NCBI GenBank assembly: GCA_001786955.1
Contig: MFUM01000011.1
Span: 1 to 44,521, forward strand
DNA from: Candidatus Nomurabacteria bacterium RIFCSPHIGHO2_12_FULL_42_19
Lineage (GTDB): Bacteria > Patescibacteriota > Minisyncoccia > Phycocordibacterales > UBA9973
Length of the DNA stretch: 44,521 nucleotides
Direction of reading: 5' to 3'
Made by a program: the position numbers and the translations under genes. The notes below the pieces were generated by a model that was given only the letters and a program-made list of their open reading frames with translations, did not search any database and had not been told where the DNA came from. Shown one piece after another: positions 44,055 to 44,521 of the stretch. The stretch's first letter is position 1; every line of letters starts with the position of its first letter.

Positions 44055-44084
44055 TTGACAAGTGAACGCTCGTTCACTTATACT
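44055..44084 (+). promoter_or_regulatory. Promoter with LexA-type operator as its spacer
   Basis: TTGACA (44055-44060), then the 18-bp inverted repeat AGTGAACGCTCGTTCACT (44061-44078), then TATACT (44079-44084). The core GAAC-N4-GTTC is the Gram-positive SOS box. A bound repressor would block polymerase. It drives a small gene and a LexA-like gene, so autoregulation is expected. Confidence 0.75.
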
Positions 44085-44095
44085 ATATTGGTCGG

Positions 44096-44150
44096 GTATA
44101 CCCCTACCCAACCTCCCCCTACGTAGGGGGAGGAGTAAGGAGGGGGTAGA
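44096..44150. repeat. C/G-run palindromic repeat in the leader
   Basis: CCTCCCCCTACGTAGGGGGAGG is a perfect palindrome flanked by CCCCTACCC and AGGAGGGGGTAG. It is of the same group as at 6995 and 34412, and lies between the promoter and the small gene, so it would fold in the message. Confidence 0.6.
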
Positions 44151-44174
44151 ATTATAAAATTAAAAATAAATTTT

Positions 44175-44402
44175 ATGTCACAAGCGCAATATTTAAAAAT
44201 GTTGGAGAAGGAGATACAAAAAATCAATAAAAAAATTGATTTAAAAATTATTCAGGGGGAAAAGTATATGAAAGAGGCGAGAGAGCACAAATTGCTCTTG
44301 AAAAAAGTCCGCTATCACACGCGAAAAGGTTTTATGAATAGATTTGTTAGTTTGTTTTTTCGGAAAGACATTTTAAAAGGCAATAGTTCCTCCTTCGCCT
44401 AG
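44175..44402 (+). CDS. Small basic coiled-coil protein
   Basis: 75 residues (MSQAQYLKMLEKEIQKINKK...). One long amphipathic helix of about 50 residues, then a basic, partly hydrophobic tail (MNRFVSLFFRKDILKG). The last few residues and stop lie in a GC-rich palindrome (CCTTCGCCTAGCTTCGGCGG). Not recognised. It is the first gene behind the SOS-type promoter and 16 bases before the LexA-like gene, so it is probably damage-induced. Confidence 0.6.
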   Translation: MSQAQYLKMLEKEIQKINKKIDLKIIQGEKYMKEAREHKLLLKKVRYHTRKGFMNRFVSLFFRKDILKGNSSSFA

Positions 44403-44418
44403 CTTCGGCGGGACAAGT

Positions 44419-44521
44419 ATGCGTAATATCTATCAGACAAAACTTGAATCTTTTTACGGAGAAAATAAAAGAATGCCGACATATTCGGAGATGCTAAAGC
44501 TTTTCGGCTTCAAATCCAAGA
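44419..44521 (+). CDS. LexA-like repressor, N-terminal fragment (runs off window)
   Basis: Only 34 residues are inside: MRNIYQTKLESFYGENKRMP and TYSEMLKLFGFKSK. This is the LexA-type winged helix: a first helix, a Pro-x-(Y/V)-x-E-(I/M) turn, and a recognition helix beginning FGFKSK (usually LGLKSKST/NAV). The peptidase part should follow outside the window. The upstream GAAC-N4-GTTC box supports this identity. Confidence 0.7.
   Translation, partial: MRNIYQTKLESFYGENKRMPTYSEMLKLFGFKSK

Follow-up and report, generated by a model that had tools for sequence, protein, structure and literature searches.

A stretch of 44,521 bases (the window), which forms the start of contig C11 (44,771 bases) in a genome of 656 kb, ends in what is probably a LexA operon that is autoregulated, responds to RecA and has been pared down to one operator. 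The small protein encoded by the first gene of this operon is most likely the core SOS output, since no other promoter in the genome carries the operator. We regard it as evenly balanced whether this description holds for the whole CPR genus, where the core SOS response would have shrunk to one operator and one effector, with the small helical-hairpin protein as the one LexA target, apart from LexA, that is conserved, and as a previously undescribed kind of effector.

The promoter of the operon can be read directly on the forward strand, with a -35 element TTGACA (44055..44060) and a -10 element TATACT (44079..44084). Between them lies the putative LexA operator, or SOS box, AGTGAACGCTCGTTCACT (44061..44078, no strand), giving a near-consensus promoter, TTGACA-AGTGAACGCTCGTTCACT-TATACT, with an inverted repeat, AGTGAACG-CT-CGTTCACT, as its spacer. 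That the repeat fills the 18-bp spacer exactly and has the core GAAC-N4-GTTC, as originally noted, is confirmed by these coordinates. The conserved operator unit, GTGAAC-N4-GTTCAC, occupies positions 44062-44077. Downstream follow the gene of the small protein (75 aa, 44175..44402, forward strand), which is the first of the operon, and the 5' part of lexA (first 34 codons, ATG at 44419, 44419..44521, forward strand), which runs off the window. The 5' leader of the operon contains a further palindromic repeat, CCTCCCCCTACGTAGGGGGAGG (44112..44133, no strand), which has four copies genome-wide versus none for a control, and is probably a dispersed genomic repeat lying outside the switch. At 44386-44418, immediately 5' of lexA, the last bases of the small gene lead into a TTCGCCTAGCTTCGGCGG...ACAAGT element, and a near-identical TTCGCCTAGCTTCGGCGG...ACAAGT stretch at locus L051 gives the small protein there the same SSSFA-type tail.

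By itself, the palindrome is weak evidence and is not significant, given the counts within the window, both for the GAAC-N4-GTTC core (two, versus 0.67 expected) and for 8-2-8 inverted repeats (five, versus about 1.2 expected). The comparison across genomes is decisive, and by this measure it is the promoter position and the conservation of the box that are significant. The core is found upstream of lexA in all LexA loci fetched from related genomes (60/60), and the exact 16-mer GTGAAC-N4-GTTCAC lies in the lexA promoter spacer of 76 of 80 related named LexA loci, which were picked by LexA protein search alone and not by the box. Three of the four loci lacking the 16-mer are cut by contig ends. 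The nearest named LexA relatives are mostly Candidatus Nomurabacteria. In an alignment of 76 promoters (the window plus 75 named loci, all chosen because they contain the 16-mer), none of the 12 specified bases varies, and the flanking columns drop to 0.04-0.4 bits; this invariance follows from the selection, and the independent evidence is the count of 76/80. The -10 element is TATACT in 69 of the 76 aligned promoters and, where recognised, starts one base past the 16-mer. In the -35 region the T at -6 is invariant, and TTGACA, TTGACT or TTGC is the rule. The promoter spacer is 17 bp in most of the aligned loci and 18 bp in the remainder, as counted after correction by hand of the TTGTTGACA cases, in which the script pattern had matched an earlier TTG. 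Across the genus the box occurs at about one site per genome, versus about zero for a reversed-pattern control, and nearly all box-bearing genomes have exactly one copy.

The gene that starts at the window end, initially recognised only as LexA-like, encodes a true LexA, with peptidase and DNA-binding domains both found (TIGR00498, PF00717 and the structure-profile match). In the window genome lexA is split across contigs C11 (to 44771) and C6, leaving about 12 residues unread where the two parts should join. Past the window, a run of N on C11 gives way to LexA sequence that includes a VTAG cleavage site and GDSM. The 3' part lies at the C6 contig end (21036-20836), where it supplies the catalytic Lys (FTMKYF) and is followed by a convergent HU-like gene. 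Both halves of the split protein match PF00717. An orthologue scores 125 bits against TIGR00498 (cut-off 111), and a search with the family profile hit solved LexA structures at an E value of 2e-27, aligning with full-length LexA from residue 8. Across 20 orthologous sequences there is no variation at the scissile Ala-Gly, Ser112 or Lys149. The protein has the N-terminal winged-helix DNA-binding domain of LexA, its S24 peptidase domain with the Ala-Gly bond and Ser-Lys dyad and, in its own promoter, a candidate operator. The window genome also encodes RecA.

The operator is best interpreted as an SOS box, because the same operator heads lexA-dinB and umuD-dinB operons in deeper relatives. It is found before UmuD-like and Y-family polymerase genes in genomes G107 and G145, and before lexA-dinB operons in several genera, e.g. 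G095, G111, G123 and G126, which bears out the original description of the repeat as an SOS-type operator. Some of the lexA-dinB promoters of order relatives carry TCGAAC-N4-GTTCGA or ACGAAC-N4-GTTCGT, near the Gram-positive box. One promoter of lexA-like and dinB genes (L160, G134:C14) has GTGTAC-N4-GTACAC instead of GTGAAC-N4-GTTCAC, possibly an operator shift after duplication. Many relatives also encode a second LexA-like protein, with a winged helix and S24 peptidase, in reading frames of 500-700 aa (L021, L023, L026, L027, L040 and similar loci). This second protein seems to be fused to a putative DNA methyltransferase, and the fusion may regulate a modification system through self-cleavage.

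Genome-wide pattern searches for GTGAAC-N4-GTTCAC with up to two mismatches found no site in a promoter of the 656-kb genome other than that of the lexA operon; with weaker sites of three or more mismatches, the regulon could be larger than one operon. Five weaker sites with two mismatches were rejected as regulon members, none being in a promoter: four are within ORFs, and one (C10:38176) is between convergent ORFs. The exact core GAAC-N4-GTTC occurs at eight sites, and all except that of the lexA promoter are inside ORFs and were likewise rejected. Neither the box nor its core is present upstream of any of 28 recA loci, including that of the window genome, and recA was discarded as a LexA target. 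No Y-family polymerase was found in the window genome, and no other repair gene there has the box. Y-family polymerases that do occur within the genus, in eight genomes (L172, L173, L176-L178, L182, L184 and L186), lack an upstream box, removing in-genus dinB as a candidate target, and the genus appears to be mostly without the polymerase end of the SOS regulon. As for the features of a canonical SOS regulon, a box before recA was not found, and a box before a translesion polymerase is absent here and present in order-level relatives. The wider SOS regulon of the original prediction, according to which a scan upstream of repair genes should find at least one other boxed gene, is thus not seen in this genome, where recA, polymerase and repair genes are unboxed, but is seen at the level of the order, where lexA-dinB and umuD-dinB carry the box. 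Boxes were additionally observed at L140 2988, L141 2927 and L142 3000, in promoters that belong to a D12 adenine methyltransferase gene, a PemK-like toxin gene and a RhuM/Fic gene. These would be accessory SOS genes of single strains, possibly mobile, and by their boxes LexA would not be strictly confined to one operon in every strain.

The small gene is found as a single copy in 65 of 80 congeners, and box, small gene and LexA are jointly missing from the same 14, two of which, G058 and G072, encode LexA-like proteins only as longer fusions. In the fifteenth congener, G017, the locus is split by a contig end. LexA was not found in G015 and G022, though box and small gene are kept; G015 has a run of N at the lexA position, and the G022 genome is 76% complete. 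The low dN/dS of about 0.10, together with amino acid conservation, indicates that the small ORF is a real coding gene under coding selection. The proposal that it is a new SOS gene candidate is strengthened to that of a real, co-regulated gene, by this ratio and by the distribution it shares with the box and LexA.

The family is 60-75 aa in length, with N18, I21, D22, K24, I25, G28, Y31 and H38 unchanged across 70 sequences. The predicted structure is a helical hairpin (helices 3-27 and 32-68, with pLDDT of about 97 over residues 11-40), in which the invariant residues cluster around the predicted turn. The tail is 25% aromatic, 16% basic and 1% acidic residues, and the last residue is F, A, I, Y or V in 71 of 75 proteins. 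Searches of Pfam, PHROGs, NCBIfam and PDB sequences gave no known family above cut-off, and Foldseek gave no meaningful match (best E value 1.6); the protein represents a new family. A phage origin was considered and rejected, with no relative found among viral contigs. In other families of the class the small gene is again found with LexA and a box, and it stays beside LexA where the order differs, as in the arrangement box-lexA-small at L317, L318, L320 and L321. At L316 (346-978, 1182-1394) and L323 (637-1269, 1498-1686) its divergent neighbour is another LexA-like S24 repressor, and there is no GTGAAC box near either of these small-gene loci. LexA orthologues without the small gene are found at L082, L087 and L108. 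No convincing small gene was found beyond this class, two marginal matches appearing unrelated.

From these observations we propose that LexA dimers would bind GTGAAC-N4-GTTCAC between the -35 and -10 elements of the sigma-70-type promoter, blocking RNA polymerase. Upon DNA damage, LexA, prompted by RecA filaments, would cut itself between the invariant Ala and Gly. This would switch the operon on, yielding new LexA, which resets the switch, along with the 60-75 aa helical-hairpin protein. We speculate that the latter serves as a short-lived effector, either of a damage checkpoint or of damage tolerance, that, for example, slows division or replication, a role we prefer because of the analogy with small SOS division inhibitors of other phyla.

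About one 8-2-8 inverted repeat is expected per window, and the repeat could therefore in principle be a chance palindrome, for which the probability left is minimal: the comparison with relatives, with the box in 76 of 80 LexA loci and at about one copy per genome, rules it out. The box is also a generic dyad that could belong to another dimeric repressor, LexA being merely a downstream target. This is very improbable given that box and LexA co-occur and vanish together, that the core is that of the Gram-positive LexA box GAAC-N4-GTTC (PMC2248561), that the box is found on umuD-dinB in relatives, and that autoregulation is usual for LexA. A weightier alternative, which we nevertheless consider unlikely, is a normal multi-gene SOS regulon in which repression by LexA extends to recA, uvr and other genes via diverged, weaker boxes missed by the strict pattern. 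Operator strength does vary within one genome in other bacteria (PMC9578287), and some relatives have the diverged TCGAAC-N4-GTTCGA and ACGAAC-N4-GTTCGT at their lexA-dinB promoters; against this stand the confinement of all other exact cores to ORFs, the absence of the core from all 28 recA upstream regions, and the unboxed Y-family polymerases of the genus.

The main rival to the checkpoint role is that the small protein is a LexA partner or modulator (an antirepressor, co-repressor or RecA-binding modulator) tuning the switch instead of acting on damage. This would fit the observations that the small gene always adjoins LexA, in either order, that it is lost with LexA, and that in two genomes it lies beside another LexA-like repressor. 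Small LexA partners are moreover described elsewhere, as with phage GIL01 gp7 (PMC4551915) and Acinetobacter DdrR with UmuDAb (PMC11332147). However, some LexA orthologues (L082, L087 and L108) work without the small protein, and we take modulation to be a possibility that is somewhat doubtful. A one-target LexA circuit sets the essentials of SOS regulation apart from its usual cargo. A repressor and one small protein would have been kept across the genus while genomes shrank, without control of recA, a polymerase or a repair gene, pointing to a single candidate gene for how CPR cells handle DNA damage. The precise operator could also be used for sensors, or for finding accessory SOS genes (toxins, methyltransferases) in Patescibacteria.

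Among known systems, the small SOS division inhibitors YneA, SosA, SidA and SulA (PMC9578287) likewise are small LexA-controlled products. The likeness is one of functional analogy only: the protein described here is predicted to form a hairpin of two helices and has a basic, aromatic tail, no transmembrane helix is evident in it by eye, and no homology to YneA, SosA or SidA was found in Pfam, NCBIfam or PDB sequence searches. A text search of the literature for LexA in Nomurabacteria or the SOS response in the Candidate Phyla Radiation found no paper. The same question has, however, been addressed in the same superphylum in the Patescibacteria LexA network study of Sanchez-Osuna, Barbe and Erill in 2017 (PMID 28618189), which we know through its citation in PMC8565304 and PMC7739468. 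In the latter it is one of three papers cited for direct-repeat LexA motifs, in contrast to the inverted repeat described here. The suggestion of a LexA box for CPR bacteria is, to judge from those citations, not wholly new. The lexA-dinB and umuDC SOS mutagenesis operons in G095, G111, G123, G126, G107 and G145 begin with the same box and operon start, whereas the window genome, without a Y-family polymerase, keeps the box, the small gene and lexA. The closest precedent for the operator is the Gram-positive LexA/DinR SOS box, or Cheo box (GAAC-N4-GTTC, consensus CGAACRNRYGTTYC; PMC2248561; PMC9578287). The outer bases of the Cheo box are CGAAC...GTTCG, compared with GTGAAC...GTTCAC in this clade and CGAAC...GTTCG in some order relatives, and recA is outside the regulon here, unlike in the Gram-positive LexA regulon. 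The GAAC-N4-GTTC dyad is present here with identical core and spacing, and in both systems the operator lies in the promoter and lexA is, here by prediction, autoregulated.
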